Of a stretch of 64,000 nucleotides of DNA, positions 17,149 through 48,029 are shown piece by piece. Both the position numbers and the translations under genes were made by a program. How positions within the stretch are numbered: the first letter of the stretch is position 1; each line of letters begins with the position of its first letter. This stretch comes from Tardiphaga sp. 709 (lineage in GTDB: Bacteria > Pseudomonadota > Alphaproteobacteria > Rhizobiales > Xanthobacteraceae), in contig NZ_CP135529.1 in NCBI RefSeq assembly GCF_032401055.1, positions 4,400,501-4,464,500 of the forward strand. Reading direction: 5' to 3'. The notes under the pieces are model-generated. The model ran no database searches and was not told the origin of the DNA. It saw only the letters and a list, made by a program, of their open reading frames with translations.

Positions 17149-18720
17149 ATGACCACGTCGGCGCCATCTCCCAGTGCGGTCCCCGGCTTTCGCCGGAACA
17201 TGGTGACGATCTGCGCCATGACCGCCACCATCATGCAGGCGCTCGACACCACCATCGCCAATGTTGCTCTGCCTTACATGCAGGGCACGCTGTCGGCGTC
17301 GCAGGACCAGGTCAACTGGGTGCTGACCTCCTACATCGTGGCGGCGGCTATCATGACCGCGCCGGTCGGCTGGATCGCCAATCGGTTCGGGCGCAAGAAG
17401 ATCTTCATCGTCTGTTCGGCGGGCTTCACTGTCGCCTCGGTACTGTGCGGCCTCGCGCAGGACATCAACCAGATGGTCGGCTTTCGTCTCTTGCAGGGCG
17501 TGTTCGGCGCGGCACTCGTGCCGCTGTCGCAGGCGGTGATGCTCGACAGTTACGCGCTGCATGAGCGCGCCAAGGCGATGTCGATCTGGGGCATGGGCGT
17601 GATGCTCGGCCCGATCATGGGACCTTCATTGGGCGCCTGGCTGACTGAAACTTACTCCTGGCACTGGGTGTTCTTCGTCAATCTGCCCTTCGGCATCGTC
17701 ACGGTGTTTGGTCTGTTGGCCTTCATGGACGAGACCAAGACCGATGCAGAACTGAAATTCGACTGGTTCGGTTTCGGCGCGTTGGCCATCGGTATCGGTG
17801 CGATGCAACTCGCGCTCGACCGTGGCGAGCAACTCGGCTGGCTCGAATCCAACGAAATCGTCATTGAGGCGATCGTCTCGGTCATCGGCTTCTATTATTT
17901 CTTCGCGCATTCCTTCACGACCTCGAAGCCGTTCATCCAGTTCGCCATCTTCAAGGACAAGAATTTTGTTGGCGGCTGCGTGTTCATGGCCGTCATGGGG
18001 CTGGTGCTGTATTCGACCATGGCACTGTCGTCGCCCTATCTGCAGAACGTGATCGGCTATCCGATCCTCACGGCAGGTCTGTTGCTGGCGACGCGTGGCT
18101 CCGGCACCTTCGTGGCGATGATGCTGGTCGGGCGCATCATGAAATATGTCGAGGCGCGTACACTGATCATGGTGGGAATGGCGCTGATGTCGGTGTCGCT
18201 GTTCTTCACGTCGATGTGGACCGACCAGACCGGCGTGTCGGAGATCGTGATCGTCTCGATCGCGCAGGGATTTGGCCTCGGTCTCGTCTTCGTGCCGCTA
18301 TCTACCGTGGCGTTCCTGACGCTACCCAATCATCTGCGCACCGACGGCACCTCGATGCTCACGCTGCTGCGCAATGTCGCCAGCTCGATCGGCATTTCCA
18401 TCGTGATCGCGCAGCTGACGTCCAACACCCGTATGGCCCATGCGGTGCTGGTCGAGCACATCACACCGTTCAACAACGCGCTGCAGATGCCCAATGTAAC
18501 CAGCGCAATCAACCTCGCCACCGATAGCGGCCGCGCCGTGATGGACGCCATCGTCACGCTGCAGGCAACGATTATCGCCTTCGGGCTCGATTATCAGATG
18601 GTGATGCTGGTGACGCTCTGTGCGATTCCGATGGCGCTGATCATCGGCTCGTCAAAGGCGACCTTGCGCGCGCAGGCGGTGAAGCCGGGCGCGGATGAGC
18701 ATCCGGCGGTGATGGAATAA
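17149..18720 (+). CDS. emrB: DHA2-family MFS multidrug transporter (EmrB type)
   Basis: The inner-membrane pump of the EmrAB system, 523 residues with about fourteen membrane helices. Hallmarks are motif A-like GWIANRFGRKKIF, motif C GMGVMLGPIMGPSLGAWLTE (the proline/glycine-rich antiporter signature) and ALDTTIANVALPYMQG in helix 1. It lies four bases after emrA. The last 57 bases (18664-18720) recur at 19966-20022, about 84% identical, beyond an oppositely oriented phosphotransferase gene. Confidence 0.9.
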   Translation: MTTSAPSPSAVPGFRRNMVTICAMTATIMQALDTTIANVALPYMQGTLSASQDQVNWVLTSYIVAAAIMTAPVGWIANRFGRKKIFIVCSAGFTVASVLCGLAQDINQMVGFRLLQGVFGAALVPLSQAVMLDSYALHERAKAMSIWGMGVMLGPIMGPSLGAWLTETYSWHWVFFVNLPFGIVTVFGLLAFMDETKTDAELKFDWFGFGALAIGIGAMQLALDRGEQLGWLESNEIVIEAIVSVIGFYYFFAHSFTTSKPFIQFAIFKDKNFVGGCVFMAVMGLVLYSTMALSSPYLQNVIGYPILTAGLLLATRGSGTFVAMMLVGRIMKYVEARTLIMVGMALMSVSLFFTSMWTDQTGVSEIVIVSIAQGFGLGLVFVPLSTVAFLTLPNHLRTDGTSMLTLLRNVASSIGISIVIAQLTSNTRMAHAVLVEHITPFNNALQMPNVTSAINLATDSGRAVMDAIVTLQATIIAFGLDYQMVMLVTLCAIPMALIIGSSKATLRAQAVKPGADEHPAVME

Positions 18721-18729
18721 AGCCAGTTC

Positions 18730-19794
18730 TCAGTCGAGCAGCTCGCGGCAATCGAGATCGTCGACCGCCAGCATGATACGTTCAAGGTTGTTCCACCAGA
18801 TCACCGGCGGGATGTTATTGGCCTCCTGCCATGCCGGGGTGGTGATCTGCCACAACACGGACAGGCGGTAGTCGTCATTCAGCGCTTGCCGGTCGTAGTC
18901 GCGCACGCCCCGCGCCACCAGTTCGGCGTGGTAGTGGTCGAGCAAAGGTCGCTCAAAGCGCCGCCGCATGTCGGGATACCAGTGCATCGCCATCATATAG
19001 GCGAGATCGTCCGATGCCGTGTCGACGCGCCAGCTATCCCAATCGAATTGCAGCGCTTCATGGCCGTTCTCATCTTTCGGCAGAAAGATGTTCCAGACAT
19101 GGGAGTCGCCCTGGACGATCGTCATGTTGGAGTGGGAGCGGTGGCGCGCCTGCAGGCGCGGCGCCGCGTCGAGCAGCCGTGCGTAGAGCTCGCGCCGTTC
19201 GGGTGACAGGCGATCGCCCTGGCGCTCGGTGAATTTTTCCAACTGGCGCGTGAGCGTCTGCACCTGCTGATCCAGCTCGGTGGACTCCTGCCATGTTCCG
19301 ATTGTGACGCCGAGGCGCGCATCATTCCACCACGCCGCATGAAAGCGTGCCCGAGACCGAACGATCTGCTCGCATTGTGCGAATGTCGGTGGCTGCGGCC
19401 AGGTGGTGGCGACAAAGTGAGACTCAGTGAGGTCTTCGAGCAGCAAATGCCACGCCTTGGTGCCGGCATCGCTGACCGCCTCGTAGCAACGCGGCACAAG
19501 ATGCTCGGACATGGCCGAACCAACGGTGTTGTAGAATGCAACTTCGTTGCGGCCGGCATGCCAGAACGTCGCCGCGCGTTCGGGGACGACGGTCTTGAGA
19601 ATGATGGAGCCCGGTGCATCGGTGTCGCCGCCATCGTAGCTCAGGCGCAGCCGGTCGATCCTGGACAGCACCGTGTTGAACGAGCGCTCCACGATGACAT
19701 CGCGGACGCGACCGTTGCCGAGCACGCCGGACTTGCGAAGCGCGGCGGTGAGATGTCCGGCATCCGCCACTGGTAGCGGTGAGATTGCTGTCAT
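18730..19794 (-). CDS. Phosphotransferase of the APH / ecdysteroid-kinase-like family
   Basis: A 354-residue protein with a kinase-like fold. The catalytic loop reads IVQGDSHVWNIFLP, with the aspartate and asparagine of the HxDxxxxN-type motif (here GDxHxxN). The metal-binding aspartate is in FDWDSWR. These fit the ecdysteroid-kinase-like (DUF1679) branch of the aminoglycoside-phosphotransferase clan. The substrate is unknown. The N-terminal EDLTESHF segment corresponds to the hinge region. It converges on emrB, separated by nine bases, and is bracketed by the two copies of the emrB tail, so it may be an acquired gene. Confidence 0.8.
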   Translation of the reverse strand: MTAISPLPVADAGHLTAALRKSGVLGNGRVRDVIVERSFNTVLSRIDRLRLSYDGGDTDAPGSIILKTVVPERAATFWHAGRNEVAFYNTVGSAMSEHLVPRCYEAVSDAGTKAWHLLLEDLTESHFVATTWPQPPTFAQCEQIVRSRARFHAAWWNDARLGVTIGTWQESTELDQQVQTLTRQLEKFTERQGDRLSPERRELYARLLDAAPRLQARHRSHSNMTIVQGDSHVWNIFLPKDENGHEALQFDWDSWRVDTASDDLAYMMAMHWYPDMRRRFERPLLDHYHAELVARGVRDYDRQALNDDYRLSVLWQITTPAWQEANNIPPVIWWNNLERIMLAVDDLDCRELLD

Positions 19795-19844
19795 GGTGGT
19801 ACACGTCCCGCAGATGAGGAAGCGTCGGCGCCGCCATGTTACAC

Positions 19845-19876
19845 GCCGAGGCACAATTTTCGAGCCTCGGCTTTTT
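19845..19876 (+). terminator. Orphan intrinsic terminator pointing rightward
   Basis: GCCGAGGC and GCCTCGGC form a perfect 8-bp stem around an 11-base loop, followed by five T residues. No rightward gene ends here; emrB stops 1.1 kb upstream and the phosphotransferase is divergent. It may be left over from the sequence that carried the emrB tail copy. Confidence 0.65.
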
Positions 19877-19965: not shown

Positions 19966-20022
19966 CTGCGGGCGCAAGCGGCAAAGCCGGGTGCGGAAGA
20001 GCATCCGGCAGTGATGGAATAG
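19966..20022 (+). pseudogene. Remnant second copy of the emrB 3' end
   Basis: Nineteen in-frame units (LRAQAAKPGAEEHPAVME then stop) match the end of EmrB (LRAQAVKPGADEHPAVME). DNA identity is about 48 of 57 bases, and most changes are at third codon positions. Upstream in frame a stop codon is reached within about 15 codons, so only the tail survives. Together with the intact copy at 18664-18720 it brackets the phosphotransferase gene. Confidence 0.8.
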
Positions 20023-20281: not shown

Positions 20282-20863
20282 TCACACGTCGAAGAACACC
20301 GTCTCGTTGGCGCCTTGCAGGTGGATATCAAACCGATACACGCCAGGCGCCGTCTTCTTCGCGATGATCGTCGCGCGGCGGTCGGCCGGGACGAGGTTCA
20401 TCACCGCATCATCAGCCGTCGCGGCTTCGTCCTCGAAATAGATACGCGTCATCGACTGCATGGTCATGCCGCGGCCAAACACGGCCATCACGATATGCGG
20501 CGCCTGCGGCTTGCCGTCATGGCCGGGCACGCTGCCGGGTTTGACGGTGTCGAACGAATATTCGCCGGCATCGGTGGTGCCGGAGCGGCCGAAACCCTTG
20601 AAGCTCGAATTCGGCAGCCCGCGGGTGTCCTGCGGATCGGCGAAGCGGCCCTGCGCGTCGGCCTGCCAGATTTCCAGCACGGCGTCGGGCACCACCTTGC
20701 CGTCGCCGTCATAGATCACGCCTTCGATGCGGATCTTGTCGCCGGTGACGTCGGGCGTTAGCAGGTTGCTGGTGAAGGCGTCGTTCCAGGCGTATTTGCC
20801 GTTCGGCGTCAGGCCGTAGGCATAGAACGGACCGACGGTCTGCGACGGGGTAATTCCGGGCAT
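20282..20863 (-). CDS. pcaG: Protocatechuate 3,4-dioxygenase alpha subunit
   Basis: The non-catalytic partner subunit of protocatechuate 3,4-dioxygenase, which cleaves the aromatic ring between the two hydroxyls to give 3-carboxy-muconate. The 193-residue product starts TPSQTVGPFYAYGLTPNG and has the VLEIWQADAQGRF strand and PHIVMAVFGRGM. It lacks the full tyrosine/histidine iron-ligand set of the beta chain, as expected. Its ATG overlaps the pcaH stop by one base, implying translational coupling. Confidence 0.93.
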   Translation of the reverse strand: MPGITPSQTVGPFYAYGLTPNGKYAWNDAFTSNLLTPDVTGDKIRIEGVIYDGDGKVVPDAVLEIWQADAQGRFADPQDTRGLPNSSFKGFGRSGTTDAGEYSFDTVKPGSVPGHDGKPQAPHIVMAVFGRGMTMQSMTRIYFEDEAATADDAVMNLVPADRRATIIAKKTAPGVYRFDIHLQGANETVFFDV

Positions 20864-21564
20864 CAGTGATTCTCCGTCGGGGTCGCGTTGCGGCCGCGCA
20901 AAACGATGTTGAAGCGGTAGGCCAGCGCCCAGCCGGGCTCGGTGACGTCGAGGTCGAAATCCGACACCATGCGCAGGCGTGCCTTTTCGTCAGTGACCGA
21001 GTTGAAGATCGGATCGAACGGGAACAAGGGATCGTTCGGGAAATACATCTGCGTCACGAGGCGCGAGACGAAGGAATGGCCGAACACCGAGAAGTGGATG
21101 TGCGCAGGGCGCCAGGCATTATGGTGATTGCCCCACGGATAGGCGCCGGGCTTGATGGTGACGAACTTGTAGTTGCCCGCGGCGTCGGTGACGGTGCGGC
21201 CGGCGCCGGTGAAATTCGGATCGAGCGGCGCGGGATGCTGGTCCCAGACATGCACATAGCGGCCGCAGGCATTGGCCTGCCACAGTTCGACCAGCGTGTT
21301 CGGCACGCCGCGGCCGTCCTCGTCCATCACGGTGCCGTGGACGATGATGCGTTCGCCGAGCGGCTCGCCGGCATGCATGGTGGTAAGGTCATGATCGCCG
21401 GGGCGCACGGTCTCGTGGCCATAGACCGGTCCTGTCGTTTCCGACAGCGTGTGCGGCATCAGGATGCGCTGCTTCTGCGGGGCACGCTTGATGGTGCTCT
21501 TGTAGCCGGGTGAGAGGCGCGGCGCGTGCGCCGCATTGCTCTCGACGGGATAGATTAGCGTCAT
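20863..21564 (-). CDS. pcaH: Protocatechuate 3,4-dioxygenase beta subunit
   Basis: The catalytic, Fe(III)-binding subunit, 233 residues. The iron ligands expected for this family are visible: a tyrosine in ACGRYVHVWDQH, a second tyrosine in GAYPWGNHHNAWRPAHIHFS, and the two histidines of HIH. The ATG at 21564 has a GGGGA ribosome site seven bases upstream. It forms an operon with pcaF (upstream) and pcaG (downstream). Other pca genes (pcaB, C, D, I, J) are not in the window. Confidence 0.94.
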   Translation of the reverse strand: MTLIYPVESNAAHAPRLSPGYKSTIKRAPQKQRILMPHTLSETTGPVYGHETVRPGDHDLTTMHAGEPLGERIIVHGTVMDEDGRGVPNTLVELWQANACGRYVHVWDQHPAPLDPNFTGAGRTVTDAAGNYKFVTIKPGAYPWGNHHNAWRPAHIHFSVFGHSFVSRLVTQMYFPNDPLFPFDPIFNSVTDEKARLRMVSDFDLDVTEPGWALAYRFNIVLRGRNATPTENH

Positions 21565-30520: not shown

Positions 30521-30791
30521 TCTGGTCTCTCCCTGATGGACTGTCGAAACGTGAGGTTCGAAGGCGACTTACATCCTGCGGGCGTCATGGCACCATGCCG
30601 GGGTCGCTCTGTGTGCGAAAACGTGCTTTAATTTCAATTAGTTATGGTGTTTCGTCAACGAGAAGATATGATGCGCCAAGGACACCGCCGCGAGAACGTT
30701 GTTGCCCGGATTGCGCAAAAGGCAGCATGGACTAGCTGTGGGGCTACAATCACCGTGACAGCGCTTGCGCCGTCCGATATCCGGGTTGTTC

Positions 30792-33588
30792 ATGGACAGC
30801 GTTGCTACACAAGACAGACCGACAACCGAAACCGACTTCGACACGACGCGGATTACCGCCGAGATCGATGCGCTTGCAGCGCAGCATCGCGGCAAGAACG
30901 ATTTGTTTCGCGCCGCGGTCGCCAAGCTGCTGAAGGCGGAACTGCTCAAGGCCAGTGAAGCCGCCGAGGCCGTCCTGTTAAAGGACCGCCACGGCCGACG
31001 CTGTGCCGAGCAGCTCTGCCACGTGCAGGATGAGATCATCCGCATGCTGTTCGCCGCGGCGACGAAGCATCTGTATCATTCGCCAATCCCGTCCGGTGCC
31101 GAACGCATGGCGGTGGTCTCTACCGGCGGCTATGGCCGTGGGCTGATGGCGCCGGAATCCGACATCGATCTGCTGTTCATCCTGCCCTACAAGCAGACCG
31201 CCTGGGGCGAACAGGTCGCCGAAGTCATTCTGTATTGCCTGTGGGACATGGGCCTGAAGGTCGGCCACGCTACGCGTTCGGTGGATGAATCGATCCGCCA
31301 GGCGCGCGGTGACATGACGATCCGCACCGCGATTCTGGAGACGCGCTTCCTCACCGGCGATCAGGCTCTGTACGACGAACTCGTCACGCGCTTCGACGCC
31401 GAAGTCGTGCAGGGCACCGCCGCCGAATTCGTCACCGCCAAGCTCGCCGAACGCGAGGAGCGCCATCGCCGCGGCGGCCAGTCGCGCTATCTGGTCGAAC
31501 CCAACGTCAAGGATGGCAAGGGCGGCCTGCGCGATCTGCACACCGTGTTCTGGATAGCTAAATACGTTTATCGCGTGCGCGACAGCAAGGAGCTGGTGGC
31601 GCGGGGCGTGTTCGATCCGCAGGAATACCGCACCTTCAAGCGTTGCGAAGACTTCCTGTGGTCGGTCCGCTGCAATATCCACTTCCTGACCAAACGGCCG
31701 GAAGAGCGGCTGTCTTTTGACCTGCAGCGCGAGATTGCGGTCCGCCTCGGCTATACCTCGCATCCCGGTATGCAGGACGTCGAGCGCTTCATGAAGCACT
31801 ACTTCCTGATTGCCAAGGAAGTCGGCGATCTCACCGCGATCCTGTGCGCCAAGCTCGAAGACCAGCAGGCCAAGCCGGCGCCAGCGCTGACGCGCATGAT
31901 GGCCAAGCTGCGGCCCGAGATGCATCGCCGCCGGCTGCCGGACAGCGATGCGTTCATCATCGACAACAACCGCATCAACCTTGCTGCGCCTGACGTGTTC
32001 AAGGAAGACCCGATCAACCTGATCCGGTTCTTCCGACTGGCACAGAAGCACAATCTGGCCTTCCATCCCGATGCGATGCGGACCGCGACGCGCTCGCTCC
32101 GGCTGATCACGCCCGAGATCCGCGAGAACGCCGAAGCCAACGCGCTGTTTATGGAGATACTGACCTCGGACAATGCCGAGATCGTGTTGCGGCGGATGAA
32201 CGAGACCGGCGTACTCGGTCATTTCATTCGTGCCTTCGGCCGCATCGTGTCGATGATGCAGTTCAACATGTATCATCACTATACGGTGGATGAGCATCTG
32301 CTGCGGTGTGTCGGCATCCTTCAGGAGATCGAGCGCGGCGGCAACGACGAGTTCGTTGTTGCCAGCGATCTGATGCGCAAGATCCGCCCGGAACATCGGG
32401 CGGTGATCTATATCACGGTGTTGCTGCATGACATCGCCAAGGGGCGTCCGGAGGATCACTCCATCGCCGGCGCCAAGGTGGCGCGGCGGCTATGCCCGCG
32501 GCTCGGATTCAACGCTGCGGACACGGACCTCGTCGCATGGCTGATCGAGGAACATCTCACCATGTCCACGGTTGCGCAGTCGCGCGACCTGTCGGATAGC
32601 AAGACCATCGAGAATTTCGCCGCCGTCGTGCAGTCCGTTGAGCAGATGAAGCTGCTGACGATTCTCACCACCGCCGATATCCGCGGCGTCGGTCCCGGCG
32701 TCTGGAACGGCTGGAAGGCGCAGCTGATCCGGACGCTGTATTACGAAACCGAGCCGGTGCTGACCGGTGGTTTCTCCGAGGTCAATCGCGCACAGCGCAT
32801 AGCATCGGCGCAGGCCGAATTCCGCCGTGCCTTCACCGAGTGGCCCGAGCAGGATCTCAACGCCTATATTCTGCGGCACTATCCGGCCTACTGGCTCAAG
32901 GTCGAGCTCGACCGCAAGATTCGCCATGCGCGTTTCCTGCGCGCATCGGAAGAGGCCGGGCACAAGCTCGCGATCAATGTCGGATTCGATGAAGCCCGCG
33001 GCGTCACCGAGCTCACGATTCTGGCCGTCGACCATCCCTGGCTGCTGTCGATTATCGCCGGCGCATGCGCCGCAGCCGGCGCCAATATCGTCGACGCGCA
33101 GATCTACACGACAACCGACGGTCGCGCACTCGACACCATCGCGATCTCCCGGGAATACGATCGCGATGACGACGAAGGCCGCCGTGCCACACGAGATCGG
33201 CGACATGATCGAGGACGTGCTCGAAGGCAAGGTGCGGCTGCCGGAAACCGTGGCCAAGCGCGCCTCGACCAAAGGCAAGATCAGGGCCTTCACGGTAGAG
33301 CCGGAAGTCATCGTCAACAACCAGTGGTCAGATCGCTATACGGTGATCGAGGTCTCGGGGCTCGACCGGCCGGGTCTGCTGTATCAACTGACCACGGCGA
33401 TCTCGAAGCTCAACCTCAATATTGCTTCGGCGCATGTGGCGACCTTCGGCGAGCGCGCGCGCGACGTGTTCTATGTCACCGATTTGCTCGGCGCGCAGAT
33501 CAATGCCCCGACGCGTCAGGCTGCGATCAAGCGCGCGTTGATCCATCTGCTGGCAAACGGCGATCTCGCGGAGAAGCCGGCGGCGTAG
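30792..33588 (+). pseudogene. glnD: Bifunctional uridylyltransferase/uridylyl-removing enzyme GlnD, frameshifted
   Basis: GlnD senses glutamine and modifies PII proteins. The frame from ATG 30792 carries the nucleotidyltransferase motif STGGYGRGLMAPESDIDLLF and the HD domain LLHDIAKGRPEDHS (~545). The first ACT domain is interrupted. Near 33195 (CGAGATCGG) one extra base shifts the frame; removing it restores RRATRIGDMIEDVLEG and an uninterrupted product of about 931 residues with both ACT domains, ending HLLANGDLAEKPAA. The raw frame instead runs out of frame to 33629. It may be a true mutation losing glutamine sensing or a sequence error. The last 66 bases recur at 34808-34873. Confidence 0.88.
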
Positions 33589-33705
33589 GGGGCACGCGGT
33601 GGGAGGGTGATCGATACAGTTTGAAGTAAACAGCCGACAATCTGTCAGCAATGCTTTGCTACGACGTGTTCCGCGCTGCAAAAAGCAAACTGAAGCTCGA
33701 GGTTG

Positions 33706-34791
33706 GTGTTGCCCAAACCACTCCGCAAATTGTTCTGGTGGCCGGCAGTTGTCGGCATACTCTTTGTTGGCGGCGTGGCCGTATTTAGTCTCCAGCGTTG
33801 GGCGAGTTCGAACAGCAGCTCGGATGATCTCGGTCGCAGGGACAGGGGCTTTTACCTCGCCGCATCTGTCAAGAATGCTGCGTTACTCGTGAAAAGCGGT
33901 GCGGACGACAATTTGCAGCTGCTTCTGATTGATTTTCAAAGCGGACGGAAAATTAGACTTCGCAGCGAACGCGCGCATTTGTCATCGGCCTATCTGTCGT
34001 CGGACGGGGCACGGTTATTATTCTCCCGTGTTCCATTAGGCGAACAGCAGGGCTACGAATTGGTGTCATGTGCGACGGATACGTTTTCCTGCCGCAGCAT
34101 CGTCAAGAGCAGCGGTTCGATTCACTCTGCATTTGAAATTTCCAACGGTCGATTTCTCTACGTTTCGAGTCCGTACTTTAAAGCCTACGATGGCCGCTTA
34201 AGACTGAACCGCAACGATATCTGGATGTTTGATCCAGCAGTCGGCGCGCGCCAACTGACTGACTTTCAGTTGTACGAGCTGCACTCCCTTAGTCTGGGTG
34301 GTGCATCGCTGTACTTTTCTGCGCTGGGCTCACCGTCGCAAAAGCCGATCATTCCAAAACAGGATCCCAGTTCGAACCGCCAGAGCAGTATTTTTCAACT
34401 CCCCTTCGATGCGGTGAAAGGCTTCCTCAGCGTGCCTTCCACGACGCTATCGCCATCCTTCGAAGCATCCGGCATCGCTACCCGTCCAAGCGCTTCGGCC
34501 GATGCTTCGCTGGTGGCATTCCTGAGGACGAGGACCGACATTGGTGCCTATCGCTACGATTTGGTGGTCGCGGACCTCAAAACCGGCGCCGAACGCTTGA
34601 TTACTGCACCTGGACGGGGCTTCTCACGCCCCGTAGTGATTGGCGATAATATCTATGTCAGCTTTACCAATGGCGATCGGGTGACCATCAGACGCTATGG
34701 TCGAGACGAAGTGGAGATGCTGTCCGTCGCCGAAATCGACGACGCGTCTGTTGCGTCGGCTGAAGTGGTTGATCTGAAAATAGCGCCCTAA
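33706..34791 (+). CDS. Membrane-anchored beta-propeller-like protein, function unknown
   Basis: A protein of about 361 residues. One N-terminal membrane helix (~11-30, WWPAVVGILFVGGVAVF) is followed by an extracytoplasmic domain with repeated beta-strand units: YLSSDGARLLFSRV, NDIWMFDPAVGARQL, ASADASLVAFLRTR and YDLVVADLKTGAERLI. The pattern is that of TolB/WD40-like propellers, about six repeats. The start could be TTG 33703, GTG 33706 or TTG 33709. The codon and base use look more AT-rich than neighbours. It is bracketed by the true glnD 3' end and a diverged second copy, which suggests acquisition. Confidence 0.6.
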   Translation: MLPKPLRKLFWWPAVVGILFVGGVAVFSLQRWASSNSSSDDLGRRDRGFYLAASVKNAALLVKSGADDNLQLLLIDFQSGRKIRLRSERAHLSSAYLSSDGARLLFSRVPLGEQQGYELVSCATDTFSCRSIVKSSGSIHSAFEISNGRFLYVSSPYFKAYDGRLRLNRNDIWMFDPAVGARQLTDFQLYELHSLSLGGASLYFSALGSPSQKPIIPKQDPSSNRQSSIFQLPFDAVKGFLSVPSTTLSPSFEASGIATRPSASADASLVAFLRTRTDIGAYRYDLVVADLKTGAERLITAPGRGFSRPVVIGDNIYVSFTNGDRVTIRRYGRDEVEMLSVAEIDDASVASAEVVDLKIAP

Positions 34792-34807
34792 ACTATCGCC
34801 ATGAGCG

Positions 34808-34873
34808 GCGATCGAGCGCGCGCTGATCCATTTGCTGGCGAATGGCGATGCGGCGGAGAAGCCAGCGGCGTAA
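34808..34873 (+). pseudogene. Remnant second copy of the glnD 3' end
   Basis: Twenty-one codons plus stop (AIERALIHLLANGDAAEKPAA) match the glnD ending (AIKRALIHLLANGDLAEKPAA). DNA identity is about 56 of 66 bases, and most differences are silent. This shows that the copy diverged as a working gene end and not as a recent duplication. It starts 16 bases after the propeller gene's stop and is followed at 34901 by a palindromic repeat. Confidence 0.85.
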
Positions 34874-34900
34874 GTGCATTTGCCGCTTTGACCTCTCCAC

Positions 34901-34990
34901 GTCATTGCGAGAAGCGAAGCGACGCGACGCGGCAATCCAGAAAGGCGCAGGCGAAGAAAGACTGGATTGCTTCGCTTAGCTCGCAATGAC
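34901..34990. repeat. Dispersed palindromic repeat, family D (GTCATTGCGA ends)
   Basis: The ends GTCATTGCGA and TCGCAATGAC are perfect inverted copies. Inner arms AAGCGAAGC and GCTTCGCTT, and GGCAATCCAG and CTGGATTGC, also pair. This element type is scattered in related genomes. It lies between the glnD-tail remnant and the ogt stop codon. Confidence 0.75.
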
Positions 34991-35002
34991 GGCTGAGAGA
35001 AT

Positions 35003-35524
35003 CTACTTCACTGCAACGCCTTCATGCTCCAGCAGCCAGCGCTTGCGGGCGATGCCGCCGCCATAGCCGGTGAGCGAACCGTTGGCGCCGATCAGGCGAT
35101 GGCAGGGCACGACGACACTCAGGGGATTTGCACCATTGGCATGACCGACGGCGCGCATCGCATTGGGCACGCCGAGTTGCGCCGCCAGCGTGCCGTAGCT
35201 GAGTGTGCTGCCTGCAGGGATTTTTCGCAGTGCCGTCCAGATACGGTTCTGAAACGGCGTGCCGGGGATGTGGCAGGTGATGCCATCGAGTTGGTTGAGG
35301 TCGCCGTCGAAATAGCGTGAGAGTGCGGTGCGGATTTCGGATGGTGCCGAGTTCTCGATCAGTTCGACCGTCCCATAGTAACGACGCAGCAAAGTCAGCA
35401 AGCGCTCTTCGTAATCGATCCAGTCGAGTGCGCAGAGTGCGCCACCGTGGTTCGTCGCCAGCAGCGCGATGCCGATCGGGGTGTCGAGCCGGTCGAGAGT
35501 CAGTGGGATGGGTTGCTTCGCCAT
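35003..35524 (-). CDS. ogt: Methylated-DNA-protein-cysteine methyltransferase
   Basis: A suicide DNA-repair enzyme that takes alkyl groups from O6-alkylguanine, 173 residues. The catalytic motif is VVVPCHRL (Pro140-Cys141-His142-Arg143). The helix-turn-helix block is LSYGTLAAQLGVPNAMRAVG, containing the arginine finger, and GYGGGIARKRWLLEHE closes the fold. No Ada-type N-terminal domain is present. It is transcribed leftward, downstream of phaR, which ends 89 bases before it. Confidence 0.93.
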   Translation of the reverse strand: MAKQPIPLTLDRLDTPIGIALLATNHGGALCALDWIDYEERLLTLLRRYYGTVELIENSAPSEIRTALSRYFDGDLNQLDGITCHIPGTPFQNRIWTALRKIPAGSTLSYGTLAAQLGVPNAMRAVGHANGANPLSVVVPCHRLIGANGSLTGYGGGIARKRWLLEHEGVAVK

Positions 35525-45847: not shown

Positions 45848-45925
45848 GCCCGCGCCGGTCCGGTTCTTGCTTTTGCTTTATTCTATGAGCTGCCATTCCT
45901 TTGAATGGCGCAACTGGAGCGAGCG

Positions 45926-46892
45926 ATGAACAAGTCCTGGCGATTGTCGTGCGTATTGGCCGCTGGGTTGATGTCCGGCGCTGCGCTGGCCGACACCAAC
46001 TGGCCGACGAAGCCGATCAAGGCGGTCAATCCGTTCGGTGCCGGCAGTGCGGGTGACGTGGTCCCGCGCCTCTTCTTCGAAAGATTGAGCACGGAGCTCG
46101 GACAGCCGATCGTGATTGAAAATCGCGTGGGTGCGGGCGGCTCGGTGGGCACGGGCGCGGTCGCGAAGAGCGATCCGGATGGCTACACCTTGCTGTCGCA
46201 GACCAACGCCATCTCCATTGCGCCCGCGATCTTCCCCAACCTCAACTACGACACCACTAGGGATCTGTCCTCGGTGCTGATGATTGGCTATGCGGCTAAT
46301 GTGATGATCGTGCCCAACGAACGGCCATGGAAAACGATTCAGGATTTCCTGACCGCCGCAAAGACCAAGGGCACGGTGATCAATTACGGCTCGGTGGGCG
46401 TCGGCAGTGCCGTGCATATCAGTTCGGAGAAAATTCCGCGCCGCCGCCGGCTTCGAGGCCACGCATATCCCGTATCGCGGCGGCTCCGAAGTCATCACCG
46501 ATATCATCGGCGGCCGCATCGATTTCTACTTCTGTCCGCTGGCTACGGCACTGCCGCTGATCCGCGAGGGCCAGGTCCGTGCGCTGGTGGTGTCGACGCC
46601 GACCCGCGTTCGCGATCTGCCGGATGTGCCGACACCGATCGACGCCGGTCTCAAGGATGCCGACAGCTCGATCTGGTTCGGTGTGTTCGTGCCAGCCAAG
46701 ACGCCGCCGGAGATCGTCGAGAAGCTTTATGTGACCGGCACCAAGGTGCTGAACACGGCTGACATGCAGGCTTCGCTGAAGAAGATCGGCGTCGAGCCGA
46801 TGCCGATGAAGTCATCCGAGATGGATGCTTTGCTCGTCAAGGAGATCGCCGACAACAAGGTACTGCTCAAAAGCGAGGTCGCGGCCAAGTAG
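45926..46892 (+). pseudogene. Bug/TctC-type solute receptor, frameshifted
   Basis: A tripartite-tricarboxylate-transport receptor with signal peptide ending GAALADTNWP. GAGSAGDVVPRLFFERL and GSVGVGSAVHISSEK are clear Bug motifs. One extra A in the run 46430-46433 shifts the frame. Removing it restores EKFRAAAGFEATHIPYRGGS and continues to the stop at 46892. The paralogue at 47070 has three As at this site (GAGAAATTCCGC). It is therefore either a recent pseudogene or a homopolymer sequencing error. No TctA/TctB partner is nearby. Confidence 0.85.
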
Positions 46893-46908
46893 GCAGACTG
46901 CCGGCCTT

Positions 46909-46936
46909 GCCAGCACGGGTGAGGCCGGCATTGTCC
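46909..46936 (+). terminator. Hairpin after the first Bug receptor gene
   Basis: TGCCGGCC and GGCCGGCA form a perfect 8-bp stem with a 6-base loop region extended by partial pairing, followed by TTGTCCTTT. A weak terminator. Confidence 0.45.
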
Positions 46937-47069
46937 TTTATCTGGAGTGGATCACCGCGCGTTCGGGCGTTGTTTTAGGCTTCAAACGGTCCGAAATTTG
47001 CTTCGTTGTCGCCGATTGGCCCGATCATTGGGCCGCCATTCCCTGTGGATGGTATTATTGGAGCAAGTA

Positions 47070-48029
47070 ATGAATAAGTTTATGCGGTGGTCGTGTGTTT
47101 TCGCCGGTGTGCTGCTGTCGTCTGTCGCGGCGCAGGCCGAAAGCAACTGGCCGACCCGGTTGATCAAGGCCACCATCCCGTTCGGCCCCGGTAGCGCTAC
47201 CGACGTGGTGCCGCGGATATTCTTCGAGCGTCTCGGGCCCGAGCTCGGTCAGACGATCGTGGTCGAGAACCGGGTTGGCGGCGGCGGCTCGATCGGCACC
47301 AACGCGGTGGCCAAGGCGGAGCCGGATGGCTACAGCATCCTGGCGCATTCCTCGGCGCTGGCGATCACGCCGGCGATCTTTCCGAACCTGCCCTATGACA
47401 CGTCGAAAGACCTGTCGTCAGTCATCATGATCGGCTCCAGCCCGCAAATCATGATCATTCCGAAGGAGCGGCCCTGGAAGACCGTAGACGATTTCCTCAA
47501 GGATGCGAAAGCCAAGGGATCGCAGATCAATTTCGGTTCGGTTGGCGTCGGTAGCGCCGTGCATATCAGTGCCGAGAAATTCCGCCTCGCTGCCAATTTC
47601 GAAGCGACCCACGTGCCGTATCGCGGTGGGCCCGAAGTGATCGCCGATATTCTTGGTGGCCGTATCGATTTCTACTTCTGCCCGGCGGCGACCGCTTTGC
47701 CGCTGATCCGCGAAGGGCAGGTGCGTGCACTGGTCGTCTCCACCGACAAGCGCAGCAATGAACTGCCCGACGTGCCGTCGATGACCGAAGTCGGTCTGAA
47801 GGACGGCGTCAGCGAGAGCTGGATCGGCGTGTTCGTGCCCTCCAAGACGTCGCGCGAGATCGTCGACAAGATGCATGATGCCGGCGTCAAGGTGCTGGCC
47901 AAGCCGGAGATGCAGGCGGCGCTGAAGAAGATTGGCGTCGAGACCGTGCCGATGCAGCCGAAGGCAATGGACGACCTCGTGGCGAAGGAAGTCGCTGCGA
48001 ATATCGCGCTGCTGAAGGATGTGAAATAA
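47070..48029 (+). CDS. Bug/TctC-type solute receptor, intact
   Basis: A periplasmic binding protein of 319 residues. The signal peptide ends ...SSVAAQAESNWP. It shares the sequence layout of the gene at 45926 throughout (GPGSATDVVPRIFFERL, GSVGVGSAVHISAEKFR, EATHVPYRGGPEVIADILGG), so the pair is a tandem duplication with substantial divergence. Bug receptors bind small carboxylates or amides; the ligand is unknown. The ATG at 47070 has a GGAG ribosome site. Confidence 0.9.
   Translation: MNKFMRWSCVFAGVLLSSVAAQAESNWPTRLIKATIPFGPGSATDVVPRIFFERLGPELGQTIVVENRVGGGGSIGTNAVAKAEPDGYSILAHSSALAITPAIFPNLPYDTSKDLSSVIMIGSSPQIMIIPKERPWKTVDDFLKDAKAKGSQINFGSVGVGSAVHISAEKFRLAANFEATHVPYRGGPEVIADILGGRIDFYFCPAATALPLIREGQVRALVVSTDKRSNELPDVPSMTEVGLKDGVSESWIGVFVPSKTSREIVDKMHDAGVKVLAKPEMQAALKKIGVETVPMQPKAMDDLVAKEVAANIALLKDVK

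Follow-up and report, generated by a model that had tools for sequence, protein, structure and literature searches.

The stretch of DNA analysed here (the window) comprises 64,000 nucleotides of the Tardiphaga sp. 709 genome (contig NZ_CP135529.1, positions 4,400,501 to 4,464,500 of the forward strand) and contains the gene glnD, behind which lie an accessory gene, a second and diverged copy of the glnD 3' end, and the native downstream gene ogt. The gene-attached glnD tail is called T1 and the displaced one T2; G000 is the genome under study (6.36 Mb), and other G- and L-numbers denote the genomes and loci compared. The four closest relatives are G003, G004, G008, and G017, and separating sites are those at which G003, G004, and G017 share one state (A) and G008 has a differing one (B). 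The features of the locus are as follows.

30765..33588, + strand: glnD, [protein-PII] uridylyltransferase (NCBIfam NF003467, 1290 bits), carrying one extra base near 33190, compared with the four relatives, that shifts the frame (frame change and alignment)
33520..33588, + strand: T1, the gene-attached glnD tail, mainly A-type (67/69 identical to G003; of seven separating sites, five A, one neither, one B)
33589..34804, no strand: extra DNA without a counterpart in the four closest relatives (comparison with relatives)
33703..34791, + strand: accessory gene, 362 amino acids, with a hydrophobic stretch near the N terminus (by eye) and weak TolB-like similarity
34805..34873, + strand: T2, the displaced glnD tail, B-type (64/69 identical to G008; seven of seven separating sites B)
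34805..35059, no strand: B-type stretch, ending on the right between 35048 and 35060; on its left side the import begins at some point before 34805 that is not placeable
34874..35002, no strand: spacer of about 130 bp with a palindromic repeat, not in the four closest relatives (comparison with relatives)
35003..35524, - strand: ogt, methylated-DNA--protein-cysteine methyltransferase (NCBIfam), the native downstream gene; 3' end to 35048 mainly B-type, the rest A-type

When the 64-kb window was compared with itself, the last 69 bp of glnD matched T2 with an E value of 7.6e-15, the alignment pairing 33520-33587 with 34805-34872 at a spacing of 1285 and with 58 of 68 positions identical (85%). 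Each copy is closed by a stop codon, TAG in T1 and TAA in T2, and 7 of the 11 differences across the 69 bp are synonymous, the stop codon being counted. The ORF (open reading frame) list has a single ORF of note between the copies, that of the accessory gene, which has no Pfam match, and the insert contains no transposase or integrase. An earlier note, made from the letters alone, had described just such a glnD tail recurring downstream at about 85% identity, with stop codons on both copies, mostly silent differences, and only a propeller-like gene between them, and this description holds. One correction concerns glnD, which is not intact in the window: T1 sits in the glnD frame (ORF 32827-33588), whereas it is out of frame when read from the glnD start, as the long ORF 30765-33629 departs from that frame near 33190, where G000 has one base more than the four relatives. 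The extra base (within 33160-33220), which puts the C-terminal ACT region of glnD out of frame, may reflect either a true change or an error in sequencing.

In all four closest relatives glnD adjoins ogt, the tail is single, and the accessory gene is not present. The glnD tail was found in 18 of 18 genomes of the genus, G000 included, and a second copy in G000 only; the accessory gene was not found in 16 of the 17 others, several of which are incomplete. At the family level, 377 of the 391 genomes searched matched the glnD tail (14 had no match), and no second tail was found beside glnD in any other genome, although short, diverged copies could be missed in this search. Within these searches the arrangement is thus not an old, static one shared across the clade, nor did T2 prove to belong to an unrelated protein. 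Apparent additional tails elsewhere were set aside: that of G226 is split between two contigs, those of G329 and G349 are truncated glnD ends at other places together with neighbouring genes, and the second matches in G020, G040, G238, G246, and G279 are weak (E values of 0.016 to 0.033). Loci L066, L067, and L068 hold truncated glnD ends elsewhere in two genomes of genus g25, with their downstream neighbours along, and in G349 a stretch of 3.3 kb next to the truncated end is 99.9% identical to the glnD locus. A palindromic repeat resembling that of the G000 spacer also lies between glnD and ogt in G001.

The two tails resemble different relatives, none of the four carrying the accessory gene: T1 matches the tail of G003 at 67 of 69 positions and T2 matches it at 57, whereas T2 matches that of G008 at 64 of 69 and T1 matches it at 63. 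In glnD before T1, 65 of 92 separating sites have the A state, 20 the B state, and 7 neither, and within T1 the single B state is at the last site (33585). T2 has the B state throughout. In ogt, 8 of the 9 sites of the 3' end as far as 35048 are B, and beyond it 15 of 16 are A (the remaining one being neither), the switch falling between 35048 and 35060. T2 and the ogt 3' end therefore belong together as a B-type block that breaks off sharply on the right, within a chromosome that is mainly A-type. Where the import begins on the left is not placeable, since both states occur in the final stretch of glnD ahead of T1. The suggestion that a segment ending in another strain's glnD tail had been imported is thereby supported, with a sharp boundary on the right side and none on the left. 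Tandem duplication, which the earlier note had thought unlikely, is disfavoured because T1 and T2 carry different haplotypes.

When looked for elsewhere, as that note had proposed, the same arrangement was found in two further places in G000 and in single cases in two other genera. The features of these cases, the glnD locus being case 1 and the first four lines giving positions in the window, are as follows.

17149..18720, + strand: MFS transporter gene (case 2), whose last 56 bp (18665-18720) recur downstream
18730..19854, - strand: accessory gene of case 2, ecdysteroid kinase-like (EcKL, PF02958), not found at this place in relatives
19967..20022, + strand: displaced MFS tail of case 2, continuing into what lies downstream in G004
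20282..21564, - strand: protocatechuate 3,4-dioxygenase subunits alpha and beta, the native downstream genes of case 2
L120 2300-5834 (G000:C1:4546800-4550334): polyprenyl synthetase tail copy of 117 bp (88%) beyond an HxlR-SDR-ADH set (case 3)
L035 14116-16552 (G136): copy of an autotransporter gene tail (85%) on the far side of a LuxR-family regulator gene, in another genus
L037 13961-18095 (G189): ilvC tail copy (95.9%) beyond the gene of a 904-amino-acid NACHT/NNH3 protein, in another genus

The two MFS tail copies of case 2 are 87% identical over 55 bp and bracket the EcKL gene, which lies on the opposite strand and was found behind the MFS gene in none of the 14 relatives compared. The displaced tail continues as the downstream sequence of G004, a genome that lacks the EcKL gene, and the first copy has its stop codon and most sites as in other relatives; elsewhere in the genus a homolog of EcKL was found in G014 only, at another place. 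The insert of case 3, judged by its distribution among the 14 genomes compared, is older and common to several species: the ADH gene follows in G003, G004, G008, G015, and G017, and the displaced tail, 115 bp in G000 (88%), has shorter remnants of 87 bp in G017 (87%) and 39 bp in G003 (85%). For the ilvC case an empty site is found in G205 (L036), of the same genus, and PADLOC gave no match for the NACHT protein. The five cases have five different target genes, and the bracketed genes are unrelated, with no integrase among them. By ORF orientation the neighbours are convergent in all three G000 cases and not in the ilvC case, where the next gene has the same direction.

A scan of 1.664 Mb of the G000 chromosome yielded 94 repeat pairs, of which nine (ten rows) were tail candidates, three rows being genuine (glnD, MFS, and polyprenyl synthetase). 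Other loci of at least 6 kb (477.5 kb, overlaps included; not a random sample) yielded four candidate rows, two of them genuine (G136 and G189). By inspection, the remaining G000 rows were palindromic intergenic repeats and one paralog pair, and the other two rows, both in L082, were palindromic repeats; with a stricter E value and a palindrome filter, seven G000 rows were left, with the same three genuine. No tail row was found in 418 kb of G003. Along a 393-kb chain between G000 and G003, a tail copy accompanied 2 of the 10 insertions of at least 500 bp present only in G000 and none of the 7 present only in G003; at the G000-only insertion 878456-880450 (scan coordinates), a 28-bp match lies outside the coding tail. 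Duplications of gene heads among the inspected rows of G000, G003, and L082 were traced to an internal repeat, a short similarity between two ORFs, and a palindromic repeat, two head rows in L076 being outside the inspected set. Elsewhere in the window, 45886-47957 contains a pair of adjacent direct repeats, each about 930 bp long and 72.5% identical to the other, which are probably tandem paralogs.

In cases 1, 2, and 3, the states that T2 shows at sites differing from T1 were found in the gene-attached tails of relatives (16, 8, and 14 relatives, respectively) at 9 of 11, 6 of 9, and 9 of 14 sites, compared with expectations of 3.0, 1.2, and 2.1 if T1 had changed at random (P <= 2.5e-4 each).

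The accessory protein behind glnD has no Pfam match at E values up to 1. Its match to the TolB family TIGR02800 (E = 0.0014, 17.7 bits) is below the curated cutoff of 343.15, and a profile of its homologs matched TolB chains at E = 0.0054. The structure predicted by AlphaFold is mostly beta, with low confidence (mean pLDDT of 51.6), and on this footing propeller-like is a fair but unproven description. Homologs are present in 9 of 296 family genomes, G000 included. A profile search of 397 genomes of the order gave four long matches, G000 among them, the remaining rows being about one repeat long, and no relative was found in viral contigs or in plasmids. In G016, of the same genus, a homolog with 54% protein identity also lies directly behind glnD, without a tail copy, and G012 has glnD followed by the same downstream gene as G016, without the homolog. 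In six of the seven other homolog-bearing genomes the gene is far from glnD or on another contig (the location of glnD in G282 is not among the data shown). That the gene forms a cassette always accompanied by a tail is unsupported, as no bracketing tail copy was found in G016 or at the seven other homolog loci.

On balance, we lean towards an import in which a stretch that included the accessory gene together with a B-type glnD tail, the palindromic spacer, and a B-type ogt 3' end entered a mainly A-type chromosome. The locus would then be a recombinant of two glnD-ogt haplotypes found in sister species; the site pattern is what we see, and the event is what we infer from it. In whichever lineage the gene first landed behind glnD, the join would have been made inside glnD and not after its stop codon, so that the arriving DNA would have brought a complete tail and a short piece of the resident tail would have been left on the far side, giving the observed order with the gene end kept. 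Two published routes could have given such a join, one-sided homology with illegitimate joining at the other side and a single crossover of a partly degraded circle. End joining of the Ku type is available: all 18 genus genomes have Ku, compared with 1 of 14 controls. Being short and divergent, the copies would seldom recombine, which may be why they persist; long, similar copies would lose the insert.

This import reading is supported by the empty sites, the two tail classes, the mosaic, the T2 states found in relatives, and the recurrence at unrelated genes with unrelated cargo, as well as by the case 2 tail that runs on into G004 sequence the homolog behind glnD in G016 without a tail copy, and the presence of Ku throughout the genus. 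Several points weigh against it. The B class is one genome (G008) and few sites, and in overall likeness to G008 T2 beats T1 by one base only. The 450 bp of glnD ahead of T1 are mixed, the last 25 separating sites being 16 A, 7 B, and 2 neither, and the drop in identity at the glnD 3' end is weak (P of 0.009, 0.026, 0.15, and 1.0 against G003, G004, G008, and G017, respectively). The random-change expectation for T2 states ignores changes in T1 itself, and some of the excess is thus to be expected from a duplication that later diverged. No donor with the whole structure was found, and homology-facilitated illegitimate recombination (HFIR) as published mostly deletes resident DNA instead of duplicating it (PMC3240628). 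For the circle route, the same source describes an Escherichia coli experiment in which 56 of 60 clones were the duplication product, with duplications of 109 to 950 bp in the 14 that were sequenced. A two-step course is also possible, in which an A-type donor gave glnD and the gene to a B-type recipient and ogt was then replaced. T1 is A-type and T2 B-type at present, and T1 may have been converted after the insertion, so the types do not settle an origin of both from one target.

A single target underlies the first alternative, a true target duplication in an ancestor after which T2 slowly diverged, the relatives having lost the insert or had the site replaced. Case 3, as an older insert common to several species with a displaced tail of variable completeness, is consistent with such a history, and B states are common in relatives further away, which would allow T2 to be an ancestral tail that has stayed frozen. 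At the glnD locus, however, T2 and the ogt end are in one haplotype that stops sharply, and G003, G004, and G017 have no spacer and another ogt end, so simple recombination of T1 with T2 did not give rise to them. We consider this duplication rather unlikely.

We regard as quite improbable a second alternative, in which the accessory gene and its tail form a small cassette that exits as a circle when T1 recombines with T2 and inserts at that tail in other strains. It would fit that two species of the genus have related genes immediately after glnD, yet G016 has no tail copy, the gene is seldom near glnD in the other genomes, and 69-bp copies at 85% identity are poor recombination substrates. 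In its favour, the E. coli experiment had partial gene duplications of 109 to 950 bp from single crossovers of partly degraded circles (PMC3240628). The third alternative, a decayed integrative element that brought its own functional tail (T1) and displaced the native one (T2) after its integrase had targeted the glnD 3' end, the integrase gene later being lost, is very improbable: direct copies of a gene 3' end do stand at both ends, and elements that integrate into the 3' ends of genes usually betray themselves by a displaced native tail whose differences are mostly silent, but the 1.2-kb insert has one ORF of note and no integrase gene, no integrase is among the genes bracketed in the five cases, the five target genes differ, T1 is nearly identical to the native G003 tail, and a literature search on glnD as an integration site or genomic island gave one broad review.

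Returning to the import reading, the scar most likely marks the uptake of a short DNA piece from a relative, a form of gene gain that is nothing unusual. Single-gene gains in bacteria often leave no trace of their route; a displaced tail marks the insertion point, preserves an allele from the join, and is mechanically searchable, giving a handle on the route and age of a gene gain that needs no dedicated enzyme. The five cases, from sampling neither complete nor random, point to scars of this kind being frequent enough for counting. A broader conjecture, which we hold to be unlikely, is that in the family of this genome and of Bradyrhizobium single accessory genes or small sets, the NACHT gene included, recurrently enter without an integrase directly behind conserved-gene 3' ends, each entry being datable by the scar of a displaced, allele-distinct tail, and that cassettes carrying a tail may even move out and back in at that tail in other strains, as minimal mobile units for which host recombination and end-joining enzymes suffice. 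No publication on displaced tails behind housekeeping genes in the family was found among the titles and abstract openings by which this was judged; this does not prove that none exists.

In the minimal mobile elements of Neisseria, too, the content between conserved flanking genes is swapped by recombination in the flanks; a tail scar is not known to be part of their definition. Insertion with long target duplication (Nobusato et al. 2000, Helicobacter pylori, as cited in PMC1643837) is closer, having a gene block in one of two related genomes with direct copies of a stretch flanking it. Here, too, the insert is in one genome, the site is empty in G003, G004, G008, and G017, and the flanking stretch is single in the empty site; in contrast to that account, where restriction-modification genes are often involved, the genes here are the propeller-like gene, the EcKL gene, oxidoreductases, and others, and the case 1 copies are now different alleles. 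HFIR, as described in PMC3240628 and PMC2884548, has one homologous side and another joined without long homology, mostly at 3-10 bp of microhomology, and no mobile-element enzymes, which agrees with an insert lacking transposase and integrase; its usual product loses resident DNA, whereas a piece of the resident tail was kept here. In Vibrio cholerae type VI secretion system clusters, shifted-back effector 3' ends have been described and an HFIR-like process proposed (PMC5361080): new genes enter at a conserved gene and the old 3' end is pushed back behind them, as here, although there effector-immunity modules displace effector genes, whereas here the genes are unrelated, several are housekeeping genes, and they keep a complete end. 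The architecture and its likely route are thus already covered by the reports on long target duplication, HFIR, and V. cholerae, to which the glnD case adds recurrence and haplotype evidence.

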